Notes under the pieces: model-generated
What the model saw: only the letters and a program-made list of their open reading frames with translations
What the model was told of the DNA's origin: nothing
The model's database searches: none
Shown here: one piece after another, positions 26,222 to 45,977 of the stretch
Layout: each line of letters starts with the position of its first letter
Position numbering within the stretch: the stretch's first letter is position 1
Origin: Romanomermis culicivorax
Taxonomy: Eukaryota > Nematoda > Enoplea > Mermithida > Mermithidae
Reading direction: 5' to 3'
DNA: 64,000 bases
Assembly (NCBI GenBank): GCA_963922205.1
Contig: CAWUHX010000063.1
Location: 62,001 to 126,000 of the forward strand
Made by a program: the position numbers and the translations under genes

Positions 26222-27979
26222 TTACAAATCTTTCGAATCGTTTTCTAGTTTCAGAGGACCACTGTCTTCGGATTCTAGAATTGCCAATGCCGTATGAGGC
26301 ATGTGTGGCTTAACTCCCGAAAGTGAGACTTTCTGAGATTGTCCAGGACAATCTAAACTATCAATAGTTATAACGTTTTTCGAAATTTTGGAGTTCATGA
26401 CCACTACAAAGGGTCAGATGAAGTCTTTATCAATTTTCGTGGATTTTTTGCTATTAACTAGCAGTACTAGATCATTTAGATCATATTTTTGCTCTTTCGC
26501 TTTTCTATCAAAATACCCATTATGCGATTCAGATGCCTGAGTGAAGATAGGGATCGGCCGAGGGTAAAATAAAAAGCCTCGGCCTCGGCGGAGGATTTTT
26601 TTAACATGATATTATATTAATACACTGGTCACTGGTAATACTAATAAGAGACTTCTTTACTCTTGCCTTTATGATCTTCATCAAGTAATTCAAAACATAA
26701 AAAAATTTATTGTATGTAGGTTGAAACTTGAAAGCAATAACAAATAATTTCAATTGAGAAAGTCAAGTAAATTTCACTCGGATTTTGTAGAATTTATGGA
26801 GTCAACCCGTCACTTTGATGCAGTAAACATTTTACATCAAAAATATCCTACTTGCTTTAGAGTTGCAAATAATCCTTGGCCTCAGCCATTTTTGATCGAC
26901 ACCCTCGGCCTGGCCGAGGGTACCAATCCTCAGCTGAGGCCCAGGCCGATCCCTAAGTGAAGATACATTGGTACGCCTTGTAGTTTAATGTTAGTGTTAG
27001 GCTTTTCGCACAATTGAAGTCAATAGCAATTCTGGGTTCATACCCTCACAACAGTCGAAATGGAGAAAAGTGAGTAGCTGTGTGAGGAACAGTGAGATAT
27101 CCTTCCCATTTATTGGGATCATTGACAGTGAACTTTTTTAGTTGCGAAATCAATGTTTGGTTGAATCTTTCCACCATGCTGTTACATTGTGGGTGATACA
27201 CAGTAGTGTTTATTTTTTGGGTTATTGTTTTTATTTAGAAGATTCATGATATCTTTCATCAAATTTGAGGTAAAACCTGCACCTTGATCTGATAGCAGGT
27301 ATTTTGGGCTTCCATGAACCAGGATTACATTATTTATGAAACTTTAAATAATAGTGGCTGCTTTTTGATCTACAATCAAATGAGCACTTACCCATTTGGT
27401 GAAATTGTCTTGGAAGACAATGACATATGATCTTTTCTCACGGAGAGGAGAAATATTTACCATATCAGTTGCAATGATTTCAAACAGATATTTCGGTTGT
27501 ATTGGCAAAAGTCGATGTGGTTTTGGGAACTGTGAAGTTGTTTGTTGACAGATTTTGCATGTTTTGATCCATTTGATTATCGATTCTTCTATCTTTGGCC
27601 ACCAAAAATGTTGATGGATCATCGCGGTAGTGTGAGTATGACCCTGATGGCTCAAAATTTTTGTGCCATGAAATTGAAACAAAATGCTTTGAATTAGTGT
27701 AGTTGGGACTACTATCGTTGAAGCTGTGTTAGCTTGTTTCAAAGTTTGATATAGTATTTCATTGTCAGTATGGAACACAGATGAAATCATAGAGATTTGC
27801 TTCTGTTCAAGCATTTCCAATAATTTCACGATGTACAGATCCTTTTTCTGGGCTTCTCGAATTTCTTCTGACGTTTTTAGCATTACAAGATGTTTGTTGG
27901 GTTGCTGGAAGTCTTTTTCGCTTTTAGGCAGTTTATCTTGAGAAGGAAGTTTGCTGTTTTCTTCTTCTTTTTGAGTCAT
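26222..27979 (-). pseudogene. Retroelement integrase region (H2C2 finger and rve core)
   Basis: The first 211 residues (27979-27344) stay open. They contain an HHCC-type finger ([15 protein letters not shown]...TCKICQQ) and the first part of the rve core, where ATDMVNIS holds the first catalytic Asp. Further downstream in broken frames are a DQG-A-GF motif (second Asp) and a VERFNQTL motif with the catalytic Glu. Beyond that lies a C-terminal segment resumed after the 408-bp MITE at 26548-26955. The enzyme would join retroelement cDNA ends to host DNA; here it is interrupted by several stops and the MITE. Confidence 0.78.
26548..26955. mobile_element. hAT-type MITE, TIR TAGGGATCGGCC
   Basis: The 408-bp element starts TAGGGATCGGCCGAGGG and ends GAGGCCCAGGCCGATCCCTA. 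It is flanked by the identical 8-mer AGTGAAGA (26540-26547 and 26956-26963). CCTCGGCC-rich subterminal words occur on both ends. It interrupts the retroelement integrase region; the coding frame resumes across the empty site. Confidence 0.9.
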
Positions 27980-28039
27980 TGATCTTGTGATAGCTACAAC
28001 AGTTCATTGATCTTGTGATAGCCACATGAAGCATCAGTC

Positions 28040-29400
28040 AAAATATTTCATTCGCCACTTCTTCATTAGACATCAATTTTGGTTTAGAATGAGGCTTGTT
28101 TCCTGACAGAAAGTCAGTGCAAATGTTCTCTTTTCCTTTCACATATTTAACATGATAATCATAGTCTTGAAGTTTCACCACGAAGTTTAGGAGTCACGAG
28201 TTTCGATGTTTTTCTTCTTTGATTCATTGTGAAGGTTTATAGTCAGTTCTGACCATCACCTTTTGACTGTAGACATAGTGTCTATACCATCAAAATGCTT
28301 CTACAATTGCGAGACACTCGCACTTAGTAGTACTGTAGCGAGTCTCTACGTCTGAAAGAACTCTACTGTTGTAAGTGATGACCCATTGATCATTTTGGTT
28401 TTCTTGATATAGAGTCCCCCTGATAGCAGGATTGCTAGCATTGGTCTGTATGATAAATTCCGATTTTTTTTTGTTATAGACAGGATATCACAAAAATGGT
28501 GTTAAAGGTAGAGATCTTTTAATCTCATTAAAAATGGCTATATGTTCTTTCATATCATATTTGGAGTCCTTTCATAGGAGTTGATACAACAGTTGTGAAA
28601 GAGTGGCAAGATTTGGTATGAATCGTGTGCACCACTGGACAAGGCCCAAAAAACTTTGAAGATCTTTTAGTTTTCAGCATTTCATAGTTTACGATTGTGA
28701 ATACCTTTTCAGGATCAGGCCAGATGCTCTTTTCACTCAGCAAATGGCTGAGAAACTTCACTTGTTTCGGTAGGAATTCACATTTATCAGGTCATAATAT
28801 TAGATTCACATTGCAAAGAGCCTCGAAAATCAGTTGGATATGCTCTAGATGGTCATTATATGCTCGCCAAAAACCTATAATATTGTCCATGTAGATGAGA
28901 CAGATTTTCCAGATTTAAGGATGTAAGATCCGTTCTGACAGTCTCTGAAACTCAGAAAGAGCATTTTTCAAACCGAAATGTAGAACTTTGAATCAGAACA
29001 AGCCTTCTTGGCTGATGAAAGTCCTTTTATCACATGAATTTGCCAGTAGCCTGCTTTTAAATCTAGAGTTGAGAAGAATGGCCCATTTCTCAAAACATCT
29101 AGGTAGTCATTGATTTGCTGAATCAGAAATTTATCACTCGGTGTGACTTTATTTATGCCTAGATAGTCGAGTATGGGTCGCCAACTTCCATCTGTTTTCA
29201 TTACAAGAAACATAGAGGCAGCCCACAGAGATTGCAAAGGTTCTTTTAGACCTTTCTCGAGCATTTCTTGGATTTTCTGATGTACCATCAGCCTCTGTTC
29301 AATGGGCATGAGATAATTGTGTTTCGCAAATGGTTTAGCATCACTAGTGTCTATGGAGACTATTGACTCATGAGTTAGAGTAGGTTGATCTCCGAGGAGA
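28040..29400 (-). pseudogene. Retroelement reverse transcriptase and RNase H
   Basis: The RT starts near 29370 on the minus strand and includes AASMFLVMKTDGSWRPILDY and FFSTLDLKAGYWQI, hallmarks of the Ty3/Gypsy RT palm. The active-site box reads YMDN at 28893-28882 instead of YMDD, so the second metal-binding Asp is lost. RNase H follows with QTNAS where QTDAS is expected, again Asp to Asn. Frames are broken around 28965, 28760 and 28550. Known function of the family is cDNA synthesis from the element RNA; this copy cannot do so. Confidence 0.82.
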
Positions 29401-30445
29401 CTGAAAACATCACATTATTGGTTCGTAACTTTGATAGCAATTTTCTTATCATCTTTATCGATATTCAATTTTTCACTCATTTTTCCAAAAGTGATTTGAA
29501 GTTTTTCTTCTTCCGATTTAGTCGACTGATCATTAACCAATGCAGCTGGCTCATGATCTTTGTGATTGCTTAGTGATGTGATAATTATTTTCGGTTCTTG
29601 GAGCTTGAATTTAACCTCAGGGATGAGCTGGTTAGGTTGTGGTTGTGGATATTCACAGTTTTCTTTGCCAAAGATCACGGGCTGAACTATGAAGTTTTTA
29701 AAGCTATCACTCGTGAAACAGTAGACTTTCAGTTAACCTAAGTTTGGCAGTTCTGTTCTACATAGCATGATGAGATGTTCAAAATCAGTAGCAATTTGTT
29801 GATTTTCACAATTTGCGTTAGATTTCATCCTGAACATCCCGAATACTTTAGCATAGGGCCTTTTTCTGATTAGTTTCAAAACTAGATTTAGTTCTTGCTG
29901 AACATCTCCAATTTGAATGAAATTTTCACGAAAGTTGATTACAGCTCGTACGCTAGGATGCCCTAGGAAATCAGTTCCTAAGGGCTTTGCTCTCTGATGG
30001 TAAGTAGTATCCAGCATCATATTAGATGGGTTCCAAAAGATGATTTTATTTTGAAGATTATCACCCCTCAGATATCAATGATATCACCCTGGGCAACTTT
30101 TACCTGTGCAGATGTTTCTAGCCAATCATAGTCAATCCCAAAAGAGCATTGAGCTAGACATGAGGAAATGACTGAGCACTGGGCACAGGTATCGATTAGC
30201 ACTTTTGTTTTGTTTTTTCCAATTTTGGCATCAATGTGAAAAGCACATGTAGGAGCATAGAGGCTCAAAAGTTTGATATCTTTTTGAGAACATTTTTCAA
30301 ATCGACACATGCTAGATCTTGCAATCCACCGTTCTGTGGTTTTTTCAATACTGAAATTGGTGATTCTCCGAGCAACGAAAAAGTTTGTAGCTTTTGACCT
30401 TTCAGTCGGTTCAAGCATATTAGTGGTGTTAGTCCTTAGTTTCAT
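29400..30445 (-). pseudogene. Retroelement aspartic protease and linker to RT
   Basis: Residues 82-95 of the ORF ending at 30068 read VLIDTCAQCSVIS, the retropepsin active-site loop. The D-T/S-G triad appears as D-T-C (Gly to Cys). The next open segment (30020-29733) contains LGTDFLGHPSV, resembling the C-terminal LG-x-DFL hairpin of retropepsins. A polar segment (29678-29415) then leads to RT. A stop splits the two halves near 30065. Confidence 0.72.
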
Positions 30446-30529
30446 CAGAACAAAAGTTTTAGGTGAGTTAGATTAGTTAGTTAGTTAGATTAATTAATAG
30501 CAAAATTTTCTGCTACAGTTGCGAAGAAG

Positions 30530-31628
30530 CTAGCTGAGTCTGTGCAGACTGTGAGCTATTCATTGGATAATAGTAGTGCTTCTCATTTATCTTTTCTTGA
30601 TGTGGTTCAAAATCACATAGAGAAATGTTGGCTACATCTCTCTGGTAGTTTCTATTATCATGATTGTAAAATCAATTATTTCGGTCTAAATTTTGGTTGT
30701 GATTTAGCATGTAGTTACACATATTTTGTTGAAAATGAGGAGGCCAATTATTGTTTTGCCATTGCAGATTTGATTGTTGTTGTCGAGGCTGTGCAGCCTG
30801 TGGTCTCAACTGATGGCATTTGGAAATATCATGTTCACACTGACCATGATAGGTGCAGTATTTTGGTGGTCAATCACATGACTGATTTTGCTGAAAATTT
30901 CAATTCTGAGAAAAATCCCATGAAGGAATGTTTTCTCTATTTTGGAAATCCGGACTCCTTCCCTATTGAATCGCAATCTTCAATTTTCGAAATTACTGTT
31001 GTTTCATGAATTTTCTCGTATTCTGAGTTTTTCGAGGATTCATTTCACGCTTTTTTAGCTTGTTATTCGTCATTGTAGTCTGATTTTCTTGAAATCTCAC
31101 AGTATTTTGCTGTCTGAAGTCATTGCTGTTTCGGGATCGCGAACTTTCCCTGAAGGGATGTTTCGAATCATCTCTAAATCTAGACTGAGATGGTTGCTGT
31201 TTTGATAGATTTTCGAGTTTGTTAACCAGTATAGGTTGTTCAACTCTCACGCTCATCTGTTTATTTACTCTTTGAAATTTCTGAACTTTTGCGATGGCTA
31301 TTCCTAAATTGGTGATAGTTTCTAGAGTGCTCGTGTCAATCGAGCCTCTGTAGATTTCCAGCATTTTCCAAAGAAAAGTTGTGATAACTTTTCTATGGCA
31401 ATACTCAGCACTCCGGTCATACTACAGTAGATGTATGTATGTGCTGATTCTGTTTAGGAATGCAAACAGATCTTTGGTTTCAAAAGGAGTGATAGACTGT
31501 GACTTGCATTGGACGTATCTTGATCCCAATTCAGAGCATTCATACACATCAAAATTTGTTTCACTTCTTCATATGATCCGACTTCTCTTACGGTGGTTAG
31601 AGCACCATCCCAAGTCAAGCGATGCATA
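30530..31628 (-). pseudogene. Retroelement gag, C-terminal part with zinc knuckle
   Basis: The minus-strand reading that begins at the Polinton boundary (31628) is open for about 80 codons in the same phase as the gag segment on the other side of the Polinton. It later contains basic Arg/Gln-rich stretches (31364-30993) and a zinc-knuckle-like CTYHGQCEHDISKC near 30830. Gag packages the element RNA. Stops and frameshifts separate the pieces. The plus-strand ORF at 30542-31009 is a shadow of this region. Confidence 0.7.
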
Positions 31629-32239
31629 AGTAGTATAGAGACCCCCCTTAAGAGTGTTTTGGGGACTACACTGTGTTAAATATAGGAAATTTAGTACACA
31701 TAAAAACTTTGAAAGAAAACGGGGACTAGTGTACAAAACATAGCCGACCTTCTTTGGACTACTATGACCTCATTTTTCCGGCTGGAAAAAACATGACGTC
31801 ACACCTGAGGTACAAAGAAAAAAGTTGCCGAAACTTGGCCCACCCACATCTCTGTCAAAACTCCAAATAATGTAACATATATGGTACTTTTCAGAATCAG
31901 CTCAATGTGATCTATCCATTGGTACCCAACATAACCCATCCAACGCTAAAGCCTAAATTTAGTGTGGGCTCTACCATTTATGTTATTTGTTAATATGCAT
32001 TGCCCCCGCTGCCCACCGCCGCCCGCGCCTGTTGGGGGGGGGAGGAAAGTTTGCCTAGCTAATAAAGCTGAAGCTGCCGCTTCAAGCTTTACATAGCTAG
32101 CCTAAATAGGAAAGTCATGTGATACATCAACAGAAATTGTGTACTTATTCACACTGATCACAGGATCAGTCCCAGTGCCAGCCGCGGGGAGGCTAGTACA
32201 CATGTGGCACTGATACTTTCATAGAAAGTACCCATAATA
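31629..32239. repeat. Polinton left terminal inverted repeat
   Basis: About 611 bases match the inverse of 44919-45971 once the 435-bp MITE and its duplication are removed from the right copy. Scattered substitutions are visible, so the copies have diverged since insertion. Confidence 0.93.
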
Positions 32240-32596: not shown

Positions 32597-35500
32597 CTAA
32601 CAACTATGGAAAAAATAATACACTTCTTGGATGCATAATGGTAAAGTAGTTATTCCATCATCTAACACTTTCCTCTTTATATACAAATATGGTAATCCTT
32701 GTTTTTCTTGTATGTATCTCCATATCAGCTTGGGTTTTGAAACCAATATTTTCACCTTCCCAAGGTGTTTTTGTTGCCAAAACCATATTGTATTTGTCAA
32801 AGGTTAGATCATTGATCTTTTTCATAATACCATTACAGCTTATTTTCTTTTCATTGTTTCCAATTCCTATGTAAGTTTTTGCTGATAAGCAGCACATTGC
32901 AGTTCCTTGCCACTCAACTTTGAGCAATCCTGGTGTTCACTTGTCTTCTTTTCTTGTTACAAACCATTTGGGATAAATTTCAGTTATAAAATGGTCTTTC
33001 AATTCAGGTCTAACTGCATCAAGCAAAGTCTCTGTTGATAAAGCCAAATAAATGCTGTCAGTATCAGTTTCCATACACTGATATTTTGTTTGATCAAGGT
33101 AAATTTGAAGTACATCATAAAAAAATTCTAGCATCTTGATTTTTGCCCAATTATAAACAGATAAACCAATCACAATTGGCAAATCCAATTTGATTTCAGC
33201 TTTCCACATTTGCACTTTGTAACAGTTGGATGAAATACTTTCAATTTTTTTTACATAAGGACTGTAGCTACATTCTACAGCTTTTTCCTGATCACAGTAG
33301 AAAACATTCACATGTTTTTCTTTGTTTGTGAGTGTTTTACCATATCCGGTGTTACCAAGCAGTTTGTATGTATCTGCTAAGATTGATAACTCCGGGTCAG
33401 CATCTCCATCTTTGCAAAGCTTTGTAACTACATCACAAAATTTTTCACAGGGTTTTGATTCATCATACTGAACAACTTCATAAATATTATCAAACACTAA
33501 GCCATGTTGAACCAAGAAACAAATCATTGGTGTAGATAGAAATATGTCTTTGCTAAAGTAGCTGCTAATTAAGCAGTCACATGGTTTACTTAATTGTCTA
33601 GTCTTCAAAGCATATTCTTTCATATGATCTCCAATATCATCAATTCCAACTTGAGCATGCTTGATTATTGGAGGAAAGTCAGCATACTTCTGTCTTAGAT
33701 GCTCTGGTGTAGAAATGTCAACTCTTGCAAAGCCAAAAACCATTCCACTCAGAATTGAGGACTTCATTTGTTAATAAGGGAGGAATTTTGAATTGAAGAA
33801 TGCTCTAAATAGATGTTTGTTCTGGGAAATGTATTTTTGACGAGACAACTTCCATTCATATTCCCATATGGTAACTAGATTGTATCCCAGTGATTGTATG
33901 TATTTCTCTTTTTCAACAATCCAGTCTTTTGCTTTCATTGAATCTTTCCCTTTGTTTCACCATCCTGCGGGGCAGTCATGACAGTGCCAGTAACATCCAT
34001 AAAATTCGTAAGCATTATTAGTCGTTTGACAAAATCCATCAACAAGTAAATGTTTCGGTCCAACCCATTTTTCTTTATTATTTCCTAAATGCTGAATATG
34101 GTATCCACATTTTTGTGACTCTTGTTCTAGCCACTCAATCAAAATTGACTTTGAGGAAACATTCTCTTTAAAGCCATCCTGATTGAGAACCCAGTGATCG
34201 AAGTGACCTGATGGTGTTGACATTGACTGAGCCCACAAATATAAAGCATTAAAATCTAACCCGATTATGCTTTTCACAATTCTCTCAGGATTATTCTGGA
34301 TGAAGGTTGCATCTTTAATTGCAAATCGATTCATTACCATGGCAAGCCCTCCACGCATACTTGCCTTAAGTCTATAGTGTAGTTCCTTTGTTTTCTCATT
34401 GAATAACACAAAATGAGTTTCTGGTATACTGTTACAGAGGTAATGCTCTGTTACACCAGGTAAAGAAAGAGCCTCTCTAAATACATCAATTTTGAAATTA
34501 ATCCAATAAATTTGGACCATATTGAGGCATGCTTCCAAAAATGGTTCAATATTGCGTAAATTATAGAATCTGAGATAATCAAACATAGTTTGCATCCCAT
34601 TTTCATTCTGCTACTGCTGAAATTGATTGTATGACTCTTGACTGATGGATTCTTTCCTTAATGAACTATAGAATCATTCTTTGGCAGGAAGTTGTTTTTC
34701 GTAAAGCTTTTCGAATGAATCTATATACTGGTATGGGAAATGAGCTTTTGTCAGTTTGGCCTTATAAGCCCTCATGAACCTGTCAAGGCTGAAACCTGGA
34801 GCTGCATATACACTTGCATCCAAGAATTTGAGTGAATCACTTGAAAGACATAGATAGAATCCATTGCGTAAAATAGCCTTTGGCCATCTTACCAAATCAT
34901 TTGATCTTGCTTGATTGACCATCTTGGGAAATATGTTATGTTTGATTAAATTCAAGTCGTACTTTCCAGAATTAAATCCAACACAAATCAATTGCTCACA
35001 GTACATTGTCAACTTGCTCTTTATGGATTTTATAAAGTTTAAATGACCCTTTGCACGCCTCACATCTTTTTGATTCTTCTTCAACTCAGGTATAAGACAT
35101 TCAGATTTGTTCGTCTGTGATTCAAGTTCAAAAAATATTGATTGAAATTGATGCAGTAGTATTTCTTGCTGTCTCATGCTTATGAGATAGAGATGATCCA
35201 CCATTCTGGAAATTAATACATCTGGATTGCTGTCAATTAGACACACAGCTTGTTCATATCCAGGCACATTAGAGGCTACTGCACAAAAGACTGGTTGATG
35301 CTCTGCAACATAAACTAGCTTATTTGATGCTGTCTTCTCTTCTCTGATCAATAATGATTCGAAATCATACACAGCAATATATTTGCAGAACTGTAAAGGC
35401 AATGGAATTTTTATATTTAAAGTCTCTAATAGTTCAAATACAGTTTGCTTTACTTGAAAAACCCCTCCCACAAATTTATGGCGAGTCTGTCCACTGTGGC

Positions 35501-36788
35501 AATGATTGTTGATATGCTCATTCAAATTGGATGCATTTTTGAACAGTCAGCCACAATCCAAGCAAGCATATCTTTTTGCATATTGGTCCAAGTTGGTAAT
35601 GTATGCGAAATGAGCTTTTCCTCCTTGAGTGAATGAAATATCAAGATTCATCAAATATTTATGTTTCTTCACTACATTTTTCCAACATGTAGCATTTCCA
35701 TTCTCCATGTAGTATATCTGTACATCAACATCAAACAGCTCTTCTAAATATGGTATTTCATCAAAATTTATGCCAGGAAATAAATCCACTGTTGGATGTA
35801 TGTTCTTTGATACACAATACTGTTGAAAATAACTGAGGACATAATCTTTCTTCTCAAAATACCCCATAATGCACTGTGTTAGACATCTGAAGAAGCATAA
35901 GTTATCATTGAGTCGAGTATGTTTTGAATCCTGAGTCATTCCAATAATGTTATGTCTTTGATAAGAAATTTGTTCAGGTAAAATGTAATTCCTACATCCA
36001 GCAACAAAATTCAACTGAGGCATTATGTAAAATTCTACATTGGTGACTGCAGCCAAATACCATTTTGTATTAGGGTGAGTAAATTTTTCAGTCATGTCTA
36101 CTTGTTGTAAAGTATGAGCCAAATTCTGAAGGTCATCACTGTTTTTGATCATCAGAGGTTTCTCTAATAACATGAAATTATTATGACATGCATACCAATA
36201 TTTGAGCTCTTCTGTCTCCCTATTTATGAGAATGCAGCCAATAGCTCCATTAATCCTGAAGCACTGCCTCTCTTTGAAATAAATATCCATTAGCATTTTA
36301 GAAAAATCTCCATTGATCTGGCTCCATCGATAATTATAAACATGATCCAATAAATTGACTAGTGATTGTCGTGTTCATATAAGTCGGCAATAATTCTGGA
36401 TAGTATTGCCTAAATTGCCAGGGTAGTCCTCTATTTCTGGATTATCTGATTCTTCCTTGATCAGAATAGTGCTATCATCTGATGTATTCTGTTCTATAGC
36501 TCCAATCGAGTCTACTGGTTTAATCAACAAACACCCATTTATATGTTCTTTTGATAATAGAGACTCCAAGCAAGTGAATGCTGTATCACAGCAAAAGCAT
36601 TCAAAAGAATTTGAATGTTTGTCTCTAATGTGGGACTTCAATTGACGTTCATGGCTGTATGTTGTATAACAAATGGGACAGTTGTACCTCCAACCTTTAT
36701 GCACTGCATTCATATGTTCAGTCATATACCTTTGTTCAGCAAAGGTTTTGCTACATTCTTCACATACAAAAAATCGCTTTTCATTCAT
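32597..36788 (-). pseudogene. polB: Polinton protein-primed DNA polymerase B
   Basis: One minus-strand frame runs from ATG 36788 to about 32660, then shifts frame for the last ~30 codons. The N-terminus has C2H2-like fingers (CEECSKTFAEQRYMTEH). An OTU-like segment (LNDNLCFFRCLTQ) follows, then the exonuclease motifs (YDFESLL; VGFNSGKYDLNLI). The polymerase motifs are DFNALYLW, KLLGNTGYGKT and METDTDSIYLAL (near 33065). The family replicates Polintons by protein priming. Seven internal stops are visible: TGA at 36375, 35547, 34674, 33957 and 32937; TAG at 34611; TAA at 33771. All motifs survive, so decay is recent relative to point substitution. A TATAAAAGC box lies upstream at 36893-36901. 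Confidence 0.93.
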
Positions 36789-36892
36789 AATCAACACTAA
36801 TTTTTGGAAAAAAAAATTTGATGACAATATAATAGAATTTACCTTCCTTCAAGTTGATAAAAATCCCAAATGAGCTTTCCTCAAATTTTTTT

Positions 36893-37697: not shown

Positions 37698-38738
37698 ATG
37701 GACAAGCTCTTTGAGAGCATATACTTCAACCCAAGTACAGGATATTGTAGTGTTCAGAACCTGTTATGACAGGCAAAATCTAGTAATCCAAGGGTCACTC
37801 TGCATTCTGTTAAGGAATGGTTACAGAAACAGCCAACATATACTGTACACAAATATGCTAGGCGCCATTACCCCAGGAATAATGTTCTAGTTACTGATAT
37901 TGATGAACAGTGGCAAATGGATCTTGCAGAGCTCAGTTCACTCACCAGGCATAATGATGGATACAAATTCCTTCTAAATTGTATAGATGTCCTGTCAAAA
38001 TTTGCATGGTCTGTACCCTTGAAAAATAAAAATACATCATCTATTTTGCATGCCTTTCAAACAATTTTGAAATCTGGGAGAAAGCCACAAAAAATACAGA
38101 CTGATGCTGGTACAGAGTTTACAAACAAAGCCTTCCAGGCCTTATTAAAGAAACTTGGCATTAGTTTTTTCATAACTGCTGGTGAAACTAAGGCTAACAT
38201 TGTTGAGCGGTTTAATAGAACTTTAAAGGAAAGAATGTGGCATCATTTTACTCAAAATAATACATACAAGTACCTAAACATTCTACCCCACCTGCTAAGC
38301 TCTTACAACTCGACTAGGCATAGGACCATAGGTGTTGCTCCCATTGATGTTACTGATGAGAATGTTGAAAAGCTTTTCAGGAAATGAAAGTATAGTTTAC
38401 AATTTAAACTGGTCCCTGGTGACAAGGTACGCATAAGCAAAGTCAAAAGGACTTTTGAGAAGGGTTACACTCCCAATTGGAGTGATGAAGTTTTTGTGAT
38501 TCGTGAGCAAAAAGCTAGATATCCTCCTGTATATACGGTAGAAGATCAGCTGGGAGAAGTCATACAGGGTGTATTTTATGAGCCAGAATTACAGAAAGTT
38601 GATGCGATTACAGATGTTTGCATTATAGAAAAGATTATACGAAAGAGAAAAAGGGCTGGGAAAACTGAATACTTTGTTACATGGAAGGGTCACCCAGATA
38701 AATTCAATAGTTGGGTGACAGATTTGATAAAACTATAG
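37698..38738 (+). pseudogene. Polinton retroviral-like integrase with chromodomain
   Basis: A single frame of 346 codons has premature TGA codons at 37767-37769 (codon 24) and 38385-38387 (codon 230). After a short N-terminal region come the rve core motifs: DEQWQMDLAEL (first Asp), IQTDAGTEFTN (second Asp) and KANIVERFNRTLK (Glu). The SYNSTRHRTIGVAPIDV block, an SH3-like linker and a C-terminal chromodomain (EYFVTWKGHPDKFNSWV) follow. Polinton integrases insert the element with a 6-bp duplication, and chromodomains can steer such enzymes toward marked chromatin. The catalytic triad is intact, but two nonsense codons inactivate the copy. Confidence 0.95.
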
Positions 38739-38804: not shown

Positions 38805-38816
38805 TATATAAGCAAC
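38805..38816 (+). promoter_or_regulatory. TATATAAGCAAC promoter element
   Basis: Variant of the Polinton TATA motif, 45 bases before the ATG at 38850. Confidence 0.5.
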
Positions 38817-38849: not shown

Positions 38850-39125
38850 ATGGAGTCAAAAAAAGTTAAAGCTCCTATTGAACTCTGCGCTCGAAACTTG
38901 CCAAGAGCCATGTATCCCTTAATGATTGAACTGTGTTATTTTTGTCAAAAGAATAGCTCTGAACGGGAGTGTTTCCAGTTGTCTCAGGGTAAAACATTCT
39001 TTACTATTGAAATGTGCCCAAAATGTCTAGAATACAATAAGGCATTGCAGGAAGCTGGCACAGCTGTACTAAAGAAGCAGCTGGCTGATAGACAGGCACT
39101 CATCTTCAAGCCTACAGTAAACTAG
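38850..39125 (+). CDS. Small CxxC Polinton protein, unknown function
   Basis: Intact ORF of 91 codons. Two CxxC-type pairs (LCYFCQKN and EMCPKCLEY) are separated by about 24 residues and could bind one zinc ion. The C-terminal third is helical and Lys/Gln-rich. A TATA-like box precedes the ATG, and the next gene follows after about 110 bases. Small Cys-rich ORFs are found in many Polintons near the integrase, but I cannot assign a function. The ATG at 38850 is the first in frame. Confidence 0.6.
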   Translation: MESKKVKAPIELCARNLPRAMYPLMIELCYFCQKNSSERECFQLSQGKTFFTIEMCPKCLEYNKALQEAGTAVLKKQLADRQALIFKPTVN

Positions 39126-39164: not shown

Positions 39165-39176
39165 TATATAAGTTAC
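39165..39176 (+). promoter_or_regulatory. TATATAAGTTAC promoter element
   Basis: Variant of the TATAAAAGTTG motif, 73 bases before the ATG at 39238. A T/C-rich tract lies between box and ATG. Confidence 0.5.
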
Positions 39177-39237: not shown

Positions 39238-39570
39238 ATGGAAGATATTTTTTTAAATGTTGCACTGAGTATGGGCACTTTTCTCAAAAGACCTTATACT
39301 CAAAAAGATGTGGCCAGATATGCCTCATATTTTTGGGATCGAATAAATGATGGCTACAAGCGTGAATGGAAGATTTTGGCTAAAGTAGCCAATGAGCTGG
39401 ATCATTGTACGGGTAAGAGAAAACTGACTGGGTTTTGGCATTTTGCCAAGGCACTAGAGGGTTTGATAAAAACCTGCAGTGCTGGACCCCTTCTTTTTGA
39501 GATTTGGATGAATCTTACTCCAGAGGCTGTACAAAAATATGATGATGAAGGTATAGATATACCCTATTAA
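39238..39570 (+). CDS. Polinton hypothetical protein, 110 aa
   Basis: Intact ORF, mixed alpha-helical composition. Internal features are QKDVARYASYFWDRIN, then EWKILAKVANELDHCTGK, with an acidic C-terminus (YDDEGIDIPY). No catalytic or metal-binding pattern is apparent. It sits between the small CxxC ORF and the packaging ATPase with its own TATA-like box. Not recognised; a virion or DNA-binding accessory role would be guesswork. Confidence 0.6.
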   Translation: MEDIFLNVALSMGTFLKRPYTQKDVARYASYFWDRINDGYKREWKILAKVANELDHCTGKRKLTGFWHFAKALEGLIKTCSAGPLLFEIWMNLTPEAVQKYDDEGIDIPY

Positions 39571-39676: not shown

Positions 39677-39687
39677 TATAAAAGTTG
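39677..39687 (+). promoter_or_regulatory. TATAAAAGTTG promoter element, copy 2 (ATPase)
   Basis: Perfect 11-mer 35 bases ahead of the ATPase ATG at 39712. A transcript starting ~30 bases below the box would have almost no leader. Confidence 0.7.
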
Positions 39688-39711: not shown

Positions 39712-40329
39712 ATGGCTGTAAAATTTAATCACCCCTTTACATGTATTGTTGCTGGCCCTACAAAAGCGGGTAAAACAACCTTTGTAAAGAATTTAGTACT
39801 AAATGTAAAATACTTGATTGAACCTGAACATATTCACTGGCTCTTTAGTGAGAAGCAGCCAGTCTACAATGACTTGTCTGGCAGAGTCAACTTCTATCAG
39901 GGATTACCTGACATGAACTTGATTAGAGAGCTCAGTCCTGCACCCCAACTTGTTATACTAGATGATCTCATGCAGGAAATGGCTAAAAATAAGCACCTAG
40001 ACATTCTTTTTACTCGTGGATGTCATCACATGAATGTGTCTGTGATACACATTGTTCAAAATGTTTTCTTCGAGGGTCTGAGAACATCTAGAATAAATGC
40101 GGAGTACCCTGTTTTGATGAAGAATCCTGCGGATAGGCTCCAAGTAAAAACTTTGGCAAGACAGTTGTTTCCTGATAAAGTAAAGTACTTTCTCGAATCT
40201 TTCGAGGATGCCACATTTAAACCATACAGTTATATAATTGTTGATCTTTCTCAAACAACACCTGATAAACTCAGACTCAGAGCCGATATTTTCTCAAAAT
40301 TTTCCATGATATATGTGCCAAAAGTATAA
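39712..40329 (+). CDS. Polinton genome-packaging ATPase (A32/FtsK-HerA type)
   Basis: Intact ORF of 205 codons. The P-loop GPTKAGKTTFVKNL lies at residues 14-27, and Walker B PQLVILDDLMQEM is near residues 81-93. A later NVSVIHIVQNVFFEG block corresponds to the sensor region. The family resembles the poxvirus A32 and adenovirus IVa2-type motors that pump DNA into icosahedral capsids. The ATG at 39712 (MAVKFNHPFTCIV) is preferred because the P-loop then lies at the usual distance; the frame is open to 39685 but lacks an earlier ATG near the box. Its TAA stop (40327-40329) lies within the next TATAAAAGTTG. One of the few undamaged large genes here. Confidence 0.93.
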   Translation: MAVKFNHPFTCIVAGPTKAGKTTFVKNLVLNVKYLIEPEHIHWLFSEKQPVYNDLSGRVNFYQGLPDMNLIRELSPAPQLVILDDLMQEMAKNKHLDILFTRGCHHMNVSVIHIVQNVFFEGLRTSRINAEYPVLMKNPADRLQVKTLARQLFPDKVKYFLESFEDATFKPYSYIIVDLSQTTPDKLRLRADIFSKFSMIYVPKV

Positions 40330-40335
40330 AAGTTG
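40325..40335 (+). promoter_or_regulatory. TATAAAAGTTG promoter element, copy 3, overlapping ATPase stop
   Basis: Perfect 11-mer that contains the ATPase stop codon TAA. The next plausible ATG is at 40361, 36 bases downstream. Confidence 0.7.
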
Positions 40336-40360: not shown

Positions 40361-40703
40361 ATGCCTTGTGATCATCTTAAACAATATTGATTACATCAGG
40401 GTACTAGCTAAGGCTAGACCCAAGCAATGAAAAGCAATTATTAGTACTGCTGATTGTGAACTGATACTTTGTTTGTGTGAATGTATACTCAACTTTCTGG
40501 AAGGCAATATAAAAGTTGACAAAAATACCTTGAATAAATTAAGTTCCCACAAGGGACATTTATGAGTATTAGCAGATGAGAAAACAAGTCTCAGCAAAAG
40601 ACGAGACATTCTAGAACAAAAAGGTGGATTTTTGCCGGTATTGTTGGCACCAATTTTAGGAATAGCTGGACAATTACTAGCTGATGCAATTATAAAAAAA
40701 TGA
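40361..40703 (+). pseudogene. Polinton small protein with GGFLPVLL tail (PX-like)
   Basis: The reading starts at ATG 40361, shifts frame near 40380, and then carries TGA codons at 40428 and 40563 before the final TGA at 40701-40703. The C-terminal part, KRRDILEQKGGFLPVLLAP followed by a hydrophobic ILGIAGQLLADAI stretch and Lys-Lys end, is the signature of a short protein found in most animal Polintons. There a Lys-rich helical domain precedes a VQKGGFL-type hydrophobic tail. It is suspected to be a membrane-active or DNA-associated minor virion component, but this is not established. Inactive here. Confidence 0.75.
40508..40518 (+). promoter_or_regulatory. TATAAAAGTTG copy 4, inside the PX-like gene
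   Basis: Perfect 11-mer located within the coding stretch (GNIKVDK), 210 bases before the ATG of the PY-like gene. It could drive that gene from a distance, or be coding-constrained coincidence; the PY-like gene has no closer box. Confidence 0.4.
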
Positions 40704-40717
40704 TGCATACAAATAAA

Positions 40718-41428
40718 ATGATTCTTGTACCGCATGACATTGGTCATAGGGAGGATATAGCAGCTAATGTAATGACTGCTTTCGATAAAGAAATGAATGA
40801 CATTTTAACTAATAAGTCATTGCCCTCTGACAGAAAGATAATCTTATACAATCAAGTGTTGCACAGATATAGGCAGGCTACGCAGGATCAAACCAGACCC
40901 TATGAGTTGACTGTTAGTGAACCTGTTGCAGAACACCTCATTCCTGATCTGGAAGAAATAACACCAAAGCTAAAAAAGCCAGACACTGCTGAAAGCATTG
41001 TTGATGTTACCCCGAGAAAAGATGTGCTGTATGAAAAAACTATGAAAATTGTACCAAAAAAGTGGCATAGTCAAGCTAAAATGTTATATGGTTATGCTAA
41101 AGATAATCCACACATGGAGTGGTCGGATAAAGGAGAAATGATTCTGAAAGGCAACAAAATAAGTGGAACTAACATTGTTGATTTGATTTCTGAGGTAGCA
41201 AGAGTTGGTCTGAGGCATCAGCAAGAAATAGGGTCAGAATTGTTTGTAAAGAACTTCTTAAAGGAGAATGTGCCTCAAGATCATTTTGTAAATAAGTCCA
41301 GGTTAAATGTTGGAAGTGAAAGCGATGAAACATTTGCTTCCCCCAGTAGCCCGGTAGATGGTAAAAAGATTGAGGTACCCAAAAGCATGACACCAAGGTC
41401 TAGATGGTTAGAATTTGGAAAAGTATAA
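40718..41428 (+). CDS. Polinton PY-like virion-associated protein
   Basis: Intact ORF; the ATG at 40718 (MILVPHDIGHRED) is preferred over 40700 because relatives begin with a similar FVLIP-x-D motif. Family features visible are an N-terminal helix ending KIILYNQVLHRYRQA, a charged linker, and a conserved block MLYGYAKDNPHMEWSDKGEM leading to NIVDLISEVAR. The C-terminal region is Ser/Pro-rich. Proteins of this type are widespread in animal Polintons, next to capsid genes, with unproved function. The stop TAA (41426-41428) lies in the next TATA motif. Confidence 0.78.
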   Translation: MILVPHDIGHREDIAANVMTAFDKEMNDILTNKSLPSDRKIILYNQVLHRYRQATQDQTRPYELTVSEPVAEHLIPDLEEITPKLKKPDTAESIVDVTPRKDVLYEKTMKIVPKKWHSQAKMLYGYAKDNPHMEWSDKGEMILKGNKISGTNIVDLISEVARVGLRHQQEIGSELFVKNFLKENVPQDHFVNKSRLNVGSESDETFASPSSPVDGKKIEVPKSMTPRSRWLEFGKV

Positions 41429-41434
41429 AAGTTG
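41424..41434 (+). promoter_or_regulatory. TATAAAAGTTG promoter element, copy 5, overlapping PY stop
   Basis: Perfect 11-mer containing the TAA stop of the PY-like gene, 41 bases before the ATG at 41465. Confidence 0.7.
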
Positions 41435-41464: not shown

Positions 41465-41845
41465 ATGAGACAATACTTTAATCCAGAAGATTATGCAGCT
41501 TGGCTTCAGTACTACAATGAACAAGCTGAAAAAACTGGCTATGTTTTCAAAGGCTTCAAAGGCACTCCATATCAGCGTGGAGGAGGTCTGGGAAGTTTCT
41601 TTAGATCATTATTCAGAATGGCCATTCCTGTTATTAAGTCAGCTGCTGGCCATATTGGTAAGCAAGCACTATCCACAGGTGCACATATTGCTGGAGATTT
41701 AGCAGAAGGTCAATCCATAAAGGAGTCTCTAGAAGAACATGGCCGAGCAGCACTCTCCAAGTTGGCTCACAGTGCTGGAGGTGCCCTGCAGACTGGGAGA
41801 GGCTTGGGGACTAGACCAAAAGGTATAAAAGTTGAGAAAAAATGA
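41465..41845 (+). CDS. Small Gly-rich Polinton virion protein
   Basis: Intact ORF of 126 codons. An N-terminal aromatic segment (MRQYFNPEDYAAWLQYYNEQ) is followed by a Gly-rich region, RGGGLGSFFRSLFRMAIPVI, and an Ala/Gly/His-rich amphipathic stretch. Polintons commonly carry a protein of this design immediately before the major capsid gene. The GxG-type sites and amphipathic helix recall adenovirus pVI-like membrane-lytic precursors cleaved by the viral protease, but that parallel is inference. The last codons overlap a TATAAAAGTTG box. Confidence 0.7.
   Translation: MRQYFNPEDYAAWLQYYNEQAEKTGYVFKGFKGTPYQRGGGLGSFFRSLFRMAIPVIKSAAGHIGKQALSTGAHIAGDLAEGQSIKESLEEHGRAALSKLAHSAGGALQTGRGLGTRPKGIKVEKK
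41824..41834 (+). promoter_or_regulatory. TATAAAAGTTG promoter element, copy 6 (major capsid)
   Basis: Perfect 11-mer within the last codons of the preceding ORF, 51 bases before the capsid ATG at 41875. Confidence 0.7.
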
Positions 41846-41874
41846 TATATTCACAAAGAAAAAGAGAAGGAAAC

Positions 41875-43177
41875 ATGGCTCTAATTGATACAATTTCTAG
41901 TATTAGTACAAACTCTGAATTGGACTTTTTCACTGTTCCTCCCACACAAGTAGTAATTAAACAAGGCTACTGGGATGAAGTTAACCCGATAAATCCTATC
42001 ACTAATTATGGTCCATACCAATTTCGTATACCTTCAGATCCTCACATGATTCAGCTTAGCAAAAATTATCTGTACATGACCTTGAAAATTACTTACACTG
42101 TTCCTGCTGGTGGAGCTGCACCAGTAATTGCACCTATCAATCTGATTGGTAAAGCATTTTTCCAACAAGTGAAGCTCTTCCTGAATGGTCGTCTTATTCA
42201 TGATAGTGGGGATAAGTATGCCTACAGAGCACTCTTTGAAACTGATTTAAATTTTGGTTTTGTGCTAAAAATAGTCACTCACAGTCTTCTTTGTATACTA
42301 TGGAAGCTGGTCCCAAAATAGATACTGCTGATTGCCAGTGTTTTAAAGACAGGGTAAAACAGTTTGAAAATGGTCAAACAGTTAAAATAACAGCTCCTCT
42401 TCATATTGATCTTCTTATGCAAGATTGATATTTACTCAGCAATACTGAGCTCAAACTGGAATTGATCCGCAATAGTAATCCATTTGTATTACAGTGCCCA
42501 GCTGGTGATGCAGGAAATGCAAAATTGGAAGTTTCCCAGATGAAACTCTTTATCAGAAAAGTTGAAGTTCTCAACAGTGTTGGATTGGCTCTAGAAAAAG
42601 CAATGTTAAAAACATCAGTCAAGTACCCAATCAGATGAGTCCAAATGGTGAATCTTCATATTGCTAGTACAACGCAATCTACACCTCTAAATATTCTATT
42701 CACTGGTCAATTGCCACGTAGGATGATTATAGCATGTGTGGATGCAGATGCATATCATGGAGAAATCAAAAAATCTCCATTTAATTTTAAATATTACAGT
42801 ATAAGTGAAGTCAAGGTTGTCTCTGGTGGTCAAGCTTTTCCAGCAACTCCACTAAGACTTGATTTTGCCAACAACAAATATATTCGAGCGTCGTATGATC
42901 AGCTCTTTGAAACTCTAGACATGGCTAAAGATAACAAGGGGAATGGCATTAACAGACTTAATTTTAAAAATGGACAGTGCTACTTTGCCTTTGATTTTAC
43001 ACCTGATGAAGATGATAGTGGACATTGGGACTTGATTAGAGATGGTTCCACAAGTATAGAATTGACTTTGCTGATACGATACCTGACGCAGGTATAGAAG
43101 TAATTGTTTATGCAGAATTTGACAATTTGATTATGATCAATAAAAATAGACATGTCTTTAATGATTATACTGCATGA
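41875..43177 (+). pseudogene. MCP: Polinton major capsid protein (double jelly-roll)
   Basis: The start MALIDTISS and the following SELDFFTVPPTQ and YLYMTLKITYTVPAGG blocks, then FFQQVKLFLNGRLI and YAYRALFETDLNFG, match the major capsid proteins of animal Polintons (often mis-annotated as F54H12.2-like). Breaks: a frameshift near 42255, TGA at 42426 and 42636, and another frameshift near 43070. The C-terminal VIVYAEFDN block leads to a TGA at 43175-43177. It would assemble the icosahedral shell as double jelly-roll trimers. The ATG of the protease gene overlaps this stop (ATGA). Confidence 0.92.
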
Positions 43178-43668
43178 ATACCTCTGAAATCTACATCTTG
43201 ACCAATAGAGATCAAGCTCTCAGACAAATCTTCAATGGGGTATTCCCTATAGACTGTTTACCACCTCTCGACACTGTACCGGCAGCATTGGTTGTAAATC
43301 TGGACAAGCAGGATGAACCTGGTTCACACTGGGTAGCTCTGTTTGTTGATAAAAAACATGCATGTTGTTATTTTGACAGTTATGGCCTGGAACCACCTCA
43401 ACAGCTTATGAATTACATCAAGACTATATCTACTTCTTACAAGTGGAATACCAAATGTGTTCAACAGTACCTGACTGCTACATGTGGTCAGTTATGTGTA
43501 TACTTTCTCATGTGGATAGTCAGAGGTATAAGAATGAGGGATATTGCTGCTAGTTTGTAACAAAGCTATGCTGAGCAATTAGTTACTGGCTTCATCAACA
43601 GTCTCTTTAGAATAAATACTCCCATACATGATGATGCATTTTTATTCGACCAGCTCAACAGAATATAA
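43174..43668 (+). pseudogene. PRO: Polinton adenain-like cysteine protease
   Basis: The catalytic set of C5/adenain-like enzymes is visible: GSHWVALF (His), ACCYFDSYG (Asp) and TATCGQLCVYFL (Cys, with the preceding Gln elsewhere in the loop). Such proteases cleave capsid and minor proteins during virion maturation. An in-frame TAA at 43558-43560 removes the last ~35 codons of the same frame, which continue as QSYAEQLVTGFINSLFR to a second TAA at 43666. The catalytic core precedes the stop, so a truncated product cannot be excluded. The start overlaps the capsid stop by ATGA and no TATA box of its own is seen. Confidence 0.88.
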
Positions 43669-43674
43669 AAGTTA
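43664..43674 (+). promoter_or_regulatory. TATAAAAGTTA promoter element (minor capsid)
   Basis: One mismatch from the 11-mer; contains the TAA that ends the full protease frame and lies 40 bases before the minor capsid ATG at 43704. Confidence 0.65.
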
Positions 43675-43703: not shown

Positions 43704-44340
43704 ATGGATTTTTCAGTTTTATGTAACATTATCGAGCAATGCTCAGAGTGATCTGAGTAACTCGGCTTCAAATTTTAGTATCAGGTTGCCTCATAGATTG
43801 ATTTTGCAAGGTGAATGGGAATGTGCACTTTGTGAATTCATCTACCCAAATACGTGGTTCAATATAACACCTAGTGATAGTGTAATAAAATTTTATGATC
43901 TTCAGACCAATACTAGGCAATTACTAAAAGTACCTTCTACAAGGTATGAATCTGTAATAGATTTAATTGAAGCTATTCAACCATCCATCAGGTTGTTGAG
44001 TGAACATGAAAAAGTTCCATATAATGAGTTTATCGAATTTTCATATAGGAGATTAGCCAGAGCAGTTGTCCTGGAAGTGAACTTGACTAGAATCAAGAGC
44101 ATAAAATTAAGTGATCCTTCACTCTACCTGTTGGGCTTTGAGAAATCACAACTAGAAACAACTTCATCTGAAAAATTGAAAATTGCTGTTGCACACCCTG
44201 CTGATATGAAGGCTGGTCTCGAAACTATGTATGTTTATTGTAACATCATTGAACAACAGATTGCTGGTGATATTTTAGCCCCCCTCCTCCGTATTGTTAA
44301 TATAGAGGGAGCTATTGGTGACATTATAGATAAGATACTG
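43704..44340 (+). pseudogene. mCP: Polinton minor capsid (penton) protein, truncated
   Basis: After the first three codons a one-base insertion in a T run shifts the frame; the +1 frame then gives a standard minor capsid start (short FYVTLSSN motif). It continues RLILQGEWECALCEFIYPN and later ADILAPLLRIVNIEG-like text (IAGDILAPLLRIVNIEG). Single jelly-roll penton proteins of Polintons share the GEWEVAL-x-EI-x-YP and LLR-IV-x-(E)G landmarks. The usual C-terminal strand after LLRIV is missing: about 20 codons later the sequence passes into the TBP-like gene, apparently by an internal deletion. Confidence 0.85.
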
Positions 44341-44368
44341 CTCAAACTCAAACTATACTGCTCAAACT
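44335..44368. repeat. Direct repeat ATACTGCTCAAACTC at deletion junction
   Basis: The 15-mer ATACTGCTCAAACTC occurs at 44335-44349 and again at 44355-44369, separated by five bases. It sits exactly where minor capsid homology ends and TBP homology begins. Confidence 0.7.
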
Positions 44369-44642
44369 CGGCAATCAGCCAAGACCCAGGAAATTTAAAA
44401 TGTGCAATATTGTTGCATCATATGCCCTAGATCACTGTATAGGCATTGAAGAATTTTATAACACTCATAGGGGTCAGTGTGATTATTCTCCCGAATTATT
44501 TCCTGCACTGAAATATACAATTATCAAGCAGGGCTTATGTGCATTGATTTTTCACAAAGGTAAAATTATTATCACGGGTGCCAAGACCTATGATGAACTG
44601 CAGAAGAACTTCAAAGAGTTACTTGTCTGTTTTCAAAGTTGA
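44336..44642 (+). pseudogene. TATA-binding-protein homologue, C-terminal half
   Basis: The open frame from about 44334 to TGA 44640-44642 encodes the inter-repeat linker and second repeat of a TBP fold. KMCNIVASYALDHCIGIEEF corresponds to the K-x-x-N-(M/I)-V-x-S strand of TBP. YSPELFPALKYTI matches the invariant Y-x-PELFPGL-Y block, and LIFHKGKIIITGAKTYDEL matches the LIF-x-SGK-(V/I)-x-TGAK strand and the start of the following helix. The C-terminal helix ends KELLVCFQS. Cellular TBP has two such repeats forming a saddle on TATA DNA; here the first repeat is absent, lost with the 3' end of the minor capsid gene. The second repeat has no internal stop. Half a saddle is unlikely to bind DNA alone. 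Confidence 0.85.
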
Positions 44643-44685: not shown

Positions 44686-44697
44686 TATAAATATATC
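44686..44697 (+). promoter_or_regulatory. TATAAATATATC promoter element (last gene)
   Basis: TATA-like box 43 bases before the ATG at 44729, same spacing as the other Polinton boxes but without the AAGTTG extension. Confidence 0.5.
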
Positions 44698-44728: not shown

Positions 44729-44908
44729 ATGGAGCCTTGCAACTTATGTGGGAAAATTCCTATGAATTCTGTGCATTATGCTGTGTATAGATATGTTCAA
44801 GCAGGTAGATACAGAGGATTGGGTGCTGATCCTTCACCAATTAACAGAACGAAAAAGCTGATGAAGAAAGAATGGACTTGGGATCACAACTATACTAGAA
44901 AAAAGTAA
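44729..44908 (+). CDS. Small CxxC Polinton protein, 59 aa
   Basis: Intact ORF too short for most ORF callers. It reads MEPCNLCGKIPMNSVHYAVY near the start and is rich in Lys/Arg at the end (NRTKKLMKKEWTWDHN). A single CxxC pair is present. It begins 43 bases after a TATA-like box and stops 10 bases before the right TIR, which supports it as a real terminal gene. Function unknown. Confidence 0.6.
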   Translation: MEPCNLCGKIPMNSVHYAVYRYVQAGRYRGLGADPSPINRTKKLMKKEWTWDHNYTRKK

Positions 44909-44918
44909 AACAACATTT

Positions 44919-45971
44919 ATTATGGGTACTTTCTATGAAAGTATTGGCGCCACATGTGTACTAGCCTCCCTGTGGCTGGCGCTGGGACTGATCCTGTGAT
45001 CAGTGCAAATGAGTACACAATTTCTGTTGATGTATCACATGACTTTTCTATTTAGGCTAGCTATGTAAAGCTTGAAGCGGCAGCTTCAGCTTTATTAGCT
45101 AGGCGAACTTTCCTCCCCCCCAACAGGCACGGGCGGTGGAGGGCAGCGGGGGCAATGCATATTAACAAATAACATAAATGGTAGAGCCCACACTAAATTT
45201 AGGCTTTAGCGTTAGATGGGTTATGTTGGGTACCAATGGATAGATCACATTGAGCTGATTCTGAAAAGTACCATATATGTTACATTATCTGGAGTTTTGA
45301 CGGAGATGTGGGTAGGCCAAGTTTCAGCAACTTTTTTCTTTCTACCTCAGGTGTGACTTCATATTTTTTTCCAGCTGGAAAAATGACGTCATAGTAGCAT
45401 ACATGTAACGGAGCTCCGAGGTCTGGGGGGGGTTGGAGCACTTTTTTGGGGCCGGAGGTCACTAATTCCCAAAATTTTGGGGGGAGTGGTCCCTGAAGAA
45501 AAAAAATCCGATTTTTTACATGAAAAATGTATGAAAAACGGTTTAAAAAGTAGTAATTTTTGTCTAAAAATGATAAAATATGTACTTATGGCACGAAGCG
45601 CCGAGAAAATTGATGTTTTTGACCATTTTTTGTTCAAAATTTGACATTTTTCATGAAAAAAAATAACATTTTTCAGTATTTTTCCGACTAAAACTATGGG
45701 GGTCCCTAGGGCTACCATATGGCTAGCCATAGGATTGGAAAATCCTGGGGGGGGGACGCCCAATGGCTAGCCATATGGTCGACGATTTCTGGGGTGGGGT
45801 TCCCATAGCACTTCCCCTCAATTACATGTATGCATAGTAGTCCGAAGAAGGTCGGCTATGTTTTGTACACTAGTCCCCGTTTTCTTTCAAAGTTTTTATG
45901 TGTACTAAATTTCCTATCTTTAACACAGGGTAGTCCCCAAAATGCTCCTAAGGGGGGGTCTCTATACTACT
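44919..45971. repeat. Polinton right terminal inverted repeat, with MITE inside
   Basis: Inverse of 31629-32239. The MITE at 45398-45832 plus one 8-bp duplication accounts for 443 bases; the remainder is about 610 bases, equal to the left copy. Confidence 0.93.
45398..45832 (+). mobile_element. hAT-like MITE, TIR CATACATGTAA, 8-bp TSD
   Basis: The 435-bp element starts CATACATGTAACGG and ends AATTACATGTATG. It is flanked by CATAGTAG on both sides (45390-45397, 45833-45840). The left Polinton TIR supplies the uninterrupted site, with a single CTACTATG-type word at 31769-31780. This copy defines the family's true ends and duplication length; other copies lie at 4150, 20811, 47861 and 49791. 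Confidence 0.92.
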
Positions 45972-45977
45972 TGCATA

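Follow-up and report, generated by a model that had tools for sequence, protein, structure and literature searches.

The window, by which we mean the whole stretch of 64,000 nucleotides of Romanomermis culicivorax DNA that was analysed, contains a decayed Polinton with inverted repeats at both ends, which are 94-95% identical according to sequence comparison (Table 1). The Polinton hallmarks found in the window are an RVE integrase, an A32-like ATPase, a C5 protease and the terminal inverted repeats (TIRs). A chromodomain is also present in the integrase homologue of locus L010. The window's PolB region is homologous to a piece of the class D locus L009, where the neighbouring ORF is a DNA_pol_B_2 gene (E = 3e-23); none of the window pieces tested gave a PolB match in Pfam. 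The major capsid protein (MCP) was assigned by homology as well. Its homologue in L018 shows a weak match to a DJR-like domain (E = 3e-4, under the cut-off), and Pfam returned no DJR-like match for the homologue in L023 or for the MCP pieces of the window. The gene in the minor capsid position (mCP) is without a match in Pfam or PDB. Adjoining the left TIR, minus-strand ORFs that by eye resemble those of retroelements were seen in the ORF list (27344-31364).

Table 1. Features of the decayed Polinton, with positions counted from the first letter of the window
Feature	Position	Strand	Basis or remark
Left TIR	31628..32239		matching pieces 31628-31766 and 31759-32239
PolB region, several ORF pieces	32658..36827	-	C2H2 fingers N-terminal; polymerase by homology to L009
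Integrase, two ORF pieces	37917..38738	+	Pfam rve, E 1e-11
TATATAAG box	38805..38812	+	45 bp before 91-aa ORF
91-aa ORF with CxxC pairs	38850..39125	+	kept across cassettes
TATATAAG box	39165..39172	+	73 bp before 110-aa ORF
110-aa ORF	39238..39570	+	kept across cassettes
TATAAAAG box	39677..39684	+	35 bp before ATPase ATG
Packaging ATPase	39712..40329	+	Pox_A32, E 2e-7; TTG-start ORF at 39685, ATG at 39712
TATAAAAG box	40325..40332	+	overlaps ATPase stop codon
p242, 242-aa ORF	40700..41428	+	kept across cassettes
TATAAAAG box	41424..41431	+	overlaps p242 stop; 41 bp before p126
p126, 126-aa ORF	41465..41845	+	kept across cassettes
TATAAAAG box	41824..41831	+	within p126, ahead of capsid gene
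MCP, two ORF pieces (41842-42321 and 42645-43097)	41842..43097	+	homology to L018 and L023
Protease	43174..43560	+	Peptidase_C5, E 6e-5
TATAAAAG box	43664..43671	+	ahead of mCP, hence of TBP in intact A/B copies
mCP, C-terminus removed by deletion	43786..44337	+	named by position
Filler, about 17 bp, at deletion junction	44338..44354	+	comparison with L022
TBP remnant: end of repeat-1 linker, whole repeat 2 and stop	44355..44642	+	Pfam, phmmer, L022
TATAAATA box	44686..44693	+	43 bp before 59-aa ORF
59-aa cysteine-rich ORF (MEPCNLC...), own TATA box	44729..44908	+	between TBP and right TIR
Right TIR	44918..45972		matching pieces 44918-45397 and 45833-45972

Just inside the right TIR, and in the same direction as the cassette, lies the remnant of a gene for a TATA-binding protein (TBP). 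The translation of 44334-44642 is open over 102 aa and matches the Pfam TBP profile (PF00352) with an E-value of 4.1e-19 and 68.6 bits (cut-off 22.9) over profile positions 1-79 of 85. In a phmmer search, its residues 7-96 align with the second repeat of solved TBPs, for example positions 177-266 of 7z7n_D (E = 1.2e-21). The two sets of scores rule out a chance similarity and bear out the initial annotation, which had read the ORF as the second repeat of a TBP. A shorter ORF with an internal ATG covers 44400-44642 of the remnant. Compared with the intact copy L022, identity ends at 44337 and restarts at 44355, with about 380 bp gone, and this deletion took the end of mCP together with TBP codons 1-77. 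The earlier idea that the first repeat had been lost by deletion is therefore right, and the TBP copy of the window is a dead remnant.

TBP genes across the assembly

When the assembly from which the window comes (359 Mb, 595 contigs) was searched with the Pfam TBP profile, 438 candidates were obtained, of which 150 were scored. All 150 lie above the cut-off and represent at least 110 loci when matches within 1 kb are merged. Searching again, this time with a TBP of group C, gave 264 candidates (150 scored), and both searches combined amount to at least 154 TBP loci including the host gene, which excludes that TBP is confined to the copy in the window. According to a hand count in the table of the group C search, about 60 copies are free of stop codons over at least 160 of 177 positions. 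Intact Polinton TBPs consist of two repeats in a single ORF of about 166-195 aa beside mCP, and four such proteins scored 119.8-149.5 bits against the Pfam TBP profile, with two tandem repeats. The initial annotation had posited an ancestral element with a full two-repeat TBP and proposed a search for such Polintons; intact relatives do carry this gene at the same place, and the host assembly holds intact two-repeat copies beside mCP.

TBP is a conserved member of the capsid-side cassette in one Polinton lineage. It lies directly 3' of mCP in 17 of 20 loci that were chosen for diversity, the other three being of the divergent class D. Among 20 further loci, taken as about every fourth of the remainder, an mCP homologue adjoins TBP in 19 (18 at the 5' side and one, of class D, at the 3' side), and L041 is without an mCP homologue within its 2.5 kb. 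A search with the ATPase gave 1069 candidates, of which the 150 listed comprise 103 of the A/B/C type and 47 of a further Polinton lineage, termed E. Among the matches listed, a TBP follows 78 of the 103 A/B/C ATPases at a distance of 0-7 kb downstream, always on the same strand, and 25 are without a listed TBP. The capsid type is widespread, with 461 relatives of the MCP at E <= 1e-5 among 8000 scored, a count that is silent on the presence of TBP there. On two contigs, pieces of group C TBP are arranged alike (C60:1246960-1248439 and C125:77670-79147), perhaps as parts of a duplicated segment.

Groups A (the family of the window), B and C share the gene order integrase, z91, o110, ATPase, p242, p126, MCP, protease, mCP and TBP, and in the group C loci L010 and L020 the PolB region comes after TBP. 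In L009, a class D locus that has near copies in L003-L006, and in these copies, TBP is followed by a 112-aa ORF and then by a divergent homologue of mCP; L012 carries a class D TBP too, but with a different ORF after it. The DNA_pol_B_2 gene of L009 lies near the divergent TBP. The divergence of the TBPs parallels that of the capsid protein, ATPase and mCP, with A nearer to B than C is, as would be expected if the common ancestor of A-C had TBP. One mismatch was seen between L014 and L011, where mCP is mostly 95-99% identical and the second half of TBP only 56-73%, which hints at an exchange of the second TBP repeat between elements.

Lineage E shows a different arrangement (ATPase ... INT, protease, mCP, pX, MCP in L061 and L062) and many near-identical ATPase copies. 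None of its 47 listed ATPases has a listed TBP on the same strand within 10 kb, and one has a TBP on the opposite strand at 6.1 kb. No TBP match came from the stretches available for the E copies L061, L062 and L063, where the best E-value was 0.56 compared to 1.6e-69 for L022 in the same search. TBP is thus likely to be absent from lineage E, as judged from partial E copies and among the TBP matches listed.

Relationships and sequence features of the element TBPs

In order to place the element TBPs, a maximum-likelihood tree of 58 TBP sequences was calculated. The TBPs of groups A, B and C form one clade with the JGI protein P0003 (99.8/100), and those of D form a separate clade with the JGI protein P0004 (99.8/99). 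Cellular eukaryotic TBPs constitute a clade without element TBPs (94.5/100). The host TBP, whose repeats lie in separate ORFs, groups with the TBP of a nematode (97.7/99), which points to a nematode as host. A TBP phylogeny had been proposed in the initial annotation as a means to separate host capture from a viral TBP. It places the element TBPs outside the cellular eukaryotic clade. Backbone support is low (for example 51.8/72 and 61.8/55), so the TBPs of A-C and D may have one origin or two, and the element TBP may go back to an old capture from a cell.

P0003 and P0004, the best two of 3657 matches, come from JGI contigs that are about 1.2 and 1.4 kb long. P0001 found no match among 5.8 billion proteins; nor did the element TBP, P0003, MCP and ATPase in IMG/VR, or the MCP in GTDB contigs. 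Twelve IMG/VR viral contigs (L029-L040) carry TBP genes, most of them with an archaeal-type YEPEQFPG motif, and these 12 viral TBPs show no supported grouping with those of the Polintons.

Most pairs of element TBPs are under purifying selection. Values of dN/dS range from 0.10 to 0.54 within A (28 pairs) and from 0.11 to 0.28 in B (one saturated pair left out); they amount to 0.28 for the D pair and to 1.01 for the one C pair tested. The single-ORF structure of the gene, its broken copy in the window and this C pair might suggest a recent retrocopy of the host TBP or a passenger without function. We regard such an origin as highly improbable given the constant place of the gene in the cassette, the dN/dS values under 0.6 that all other unsaturated pairs within groups show, and the relatives P0003 and P0004 in JGI data. 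A recent host retrocopy in particular is ruled out by the position outside the cellular TBP clade and by the at least 154 loci (host gene included); the same tree and loci dispose of the case that the initial annotation had named as fatal to its reading, a host retrocopy inserted in a single copy.

When a profile was built from 13 element TBPs, it could be aligned with 170 positions of the human TBP core with no gap (E = 4e-50). At the positions that we take to be those of the four intercalating phenylalanines, Phe is kept except for F116Y in A/B and F190Y in L027. The two presumed DNA-surface asparagines are kept, and the first of them is present in the full B/C ORFs. All element rows retain Glu188 and Leu189, and Glu186 is replaced by Ser, Thr, Ala or Val in A-C. 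A further change concerns helix H2, numbered here as we assume for yeast, which we take to be the positive N-lobe cluster that docks TBP regulators. Its net charge lies between -4 and +2 in the element TBPs and between +3 and +5 in those cellular eukaryotic TBPs that were examined. In every complete A-C row, position 137 has Asp or Glu instead of Arg, and Arg141 is often replaced by Asp or Glu as well. The basic residues that remain are Lys145 in A and some B and Lys138 in D, and P0004 has three basic positions. The basic H2 face of the element TBPs is thus largely, though not wholly, neutralised. With this changed H2 and their place outside the cellular clade, the element TBPs do not belong to the cellular eukaryotic TBPs.

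A similar pattern has been described in viruses. According to the available text of PMC7221094, the positive cluster on the TBP N-lobe docks TFIIA, Mot1, Brf1/2 and TAF1, and it is not retained in viral TBPs, which keep the DNA-binding positions and lose the N-lobe signature.

TATA boxes and the proposed function

The promoters of the cassette genes show a pattern that is a new observation, absent from the initial annotation. We searched for TATAWAWR between -25 and -95 relative to the start codon in 34 genes, of which 33 come from a single representative of each of the groups A, B and C and one is PolB of L023, and compared the counts with 500 dinucleotide shuffles. An upstream TATA box is present in 25 of these 34 A-C genes (shuffle mean 2.06, maximum 8), and the exact TATAAAAG occurs at -34 to -63 upstream of 17 (0.33 in shuffles). 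Across 40 stretches, TATAAAAG was counted 107 times in sense and 5 times in antisense orientation. Some boxes lie in the stop or C-terminal codons of the preceding gene (those at 40325, 41424 and 41824 in the window), so promoter and coding sequence are shared there.

By gene, with starts assigned by pattern, a box precedes mCP in 23 of 24 cases, the 59-aa ORF in 23 of 24, p114 and MCP in 11 of 11 each, the ATPase in 11 of 12, z in 9 of 12, o in 12 of 18, p126 in 9 of 11 and TBP in 4 of 33, and it was found before none of 15 p242 and none of 22 protease genes. Seven of the nine boxless A-C genes directly follow a gene that has a box (p114-p242, MCP-protease, and mCP-TBP in A/B), which is what one would expect if transcripts are shared. 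The remaining two are z80 of L010 and PolB of L023, neither of which is a second cistron. In lineage E, for which two copies of partial length were available, a box was found in 5 of 16 genes and TATAAAAG in 1 of 16, so that both are rarer than in A-C (Fisher p = 0.006 and 0.004, respectively). In the TBP-bearing group D, 2 of 7 genes have a box, of the TATAAATA type, and TATAAAAG is absent from 20 kb of the class D loci L009 and L012.

To our knowledge, little is known about the transcription of Polintons. Judging from sequence, we consider it fairly probable that the TBP is an initiation factor which the element brings along for promoters of its own and which uses the host RNA polymerase II (Pol II). 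In groups A and B, TBP would be made from a shared mCP-TBP transcript, would bind the TATA boxes ahead of most cassette genes, and would load host TFIIB and host Pol II there. We propose host TFIIB and host polymerase because Pfam recognised neither a TFIIB nor an RNA polymerase in the cassette ORFs tested, p114 and the 59-aa ORF aside. The largely neutralised H2 face would be poorly seen by host TFIIA, Mot1, TAF1 and Brf, which control or evict cellular TBP. More tentatively, and with chances that we judge to be just short of even, these predictions would add up to a private promoter class in a Polinton lineage of about 14 kb, composed of an own TBP largely freed of host regulators, TATAAAAG boxes, and host TFIIB and Pol II. 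The statement of the initial annotation that some Polintons bring their own initiation factor is one that we likewise infer, backed by the TATA boxes of A-C, the mostly kept DNA-contact residues and the purifying selection in most pairs.

Other roles are conceivable. The changed H2 face and the replaced Glu186 would suit a TBP that binds DNA and initiates poorly, and it might then act as a decoy or antagonist that occupies TATA boxes or sequesters TFIIB/TAFs, damping host transcription or silencing competing elements. We consider this unlikely, since Glu188 and Leu189 are kept and sense boxes at similar distances from the start codons of A-C genes would mean self-harm for a pure repressor. TBP might alternatively serve in an architectural manner, bending DNA (as we take TBP to do) for replication, packaging or integration, a role that would agree with the location of its gene near the right TIR. 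In the cassette, the boxes stand before genes, and we consider such an architectural role very improbable. Since TATAAAAG is an optimal box for ordinary TBP as well, host TBP could serve these promoters, and this weakens the proposal of an initiation factor for the element's own promoters. The captured TBP would then be auxiliary, raising the dosage of TBP or replacing limiting host TBP with no promoter specificity of its own. In line with this are the box, which we take to be canonical, the DNA-contact residues, which are largely as in cellular TBP, and the few such boxes in the TBP-bearing group D. An auxiliary TBP nevertheless seems rather improbable to us in view of the deep divergence from host TBP and of an H2 face that is unlike that of a plain dosage copy.

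For the factor with its own promoters, which we favour, several further points have to be weighed. It is weakened by group D, which bears TBP and has few boxes and no TATAAAAG, by an H2 that is not wholly stripped, and by the doubt about host TFIIB use that is voiced in the available text of PMC7221094. Also counted against it are the dN/dS of 1.01 of the C pair, the 25 of 103 listed ATPases without a listed TBP and the two boxless genes that are not second cistrons. If the proposal holds, a small virus-like element would bring its own core initiation factor, and even DNA elements of only about 14 kb could assume control of Pol II initiation at its first step. Since one and the same genome contains elements that bear TBP as well as elements without a TBP match, the question can be put to a direct test. 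As a natural TBP whose regulator face is altered and whose DNA face is retained, the protein would moreover be useful for probing the role of the regulator face in cells.

Polintons have been linked to the origin of several groups of eukaryotic DNA viruses. The elements described here share with other Polintons/Mavericks an integrase with chromodomain, an A32-like ATPase, a C5 protease and TIRs, and perhaps also a DJR capsid, to which the match is weak, and a PolB, which was assigned by homology. What sets them apart is TBP as an additional cassette gene and, for groups A-C, the recurrent TATA box. No precedent for a Polinton or Maverick with TBP was found in the literature searched, which covered a minority of subscription papers. 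The available text of PMC11071308 and PMC10120064 has no mention of TATA, TBP or transcription, TBP appears in that of PMC10675990 solely in mirusvirus-like elements and in that of PMC7786948 solely as a host protein, and in that of PMC12220804 'tata' is the name of an author.

Virus-borne TBP mimics are known from herpesviruses (KSHV ORF24, EBV BcRF1). In beta- and gamma-herpesviruses, this vTBP takes the place of TBP at late promoters of the virus and relies on host Pol II, as far as the available text of PMC7498053 goes. It combines a TBP-like domain with an N-terminus that binds the Pol II CTD, and its system further comprises a TATT motif and no fewer than six viral proteins. The element TBP, in contrast, has little beyond the classical two-repeat core and is accompanied by TATAAAAG. 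There is no room for an N-terminal CTD-binding domain in the unbroken element TBPs of 166-195 aa, and Pfam recognised no partner vTA proteins of the herpesvirus type in the tested cassette ORFs. By analogy, the element TBP would work like herpesvirus vTBP or the TBP of CpV-BQ1, yet outside the herpesvirus system.

TBP is also encoded by large DNA viruses, as stated in the available parts of the respective papers, namely by mirusviruses (PMC10132985), a megavirus (PMC11464507) and CpV-BQ1, whose TBP is thought to redirect the host polymerase (PMC12085832). The genomes of these viruses are much larger, and the megavirus and CpV-BQ1 encode TFIIB as well. The CHeCMEs of Cymbomonas are repeat elements of putative viral origin, with TBP genes that are more sporadic; they are mirusvirus-like and not Polintons, and according to the available text (PMC10675990) neither a DJR capsid nor a packaging ATPase nor a DNA polymerase has been identified in them. 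Insect TRF and other cellular TBP paralogues share the two-repeat core with the element TBPs, but they group inside the cellular TBPs and keep a basic H2.
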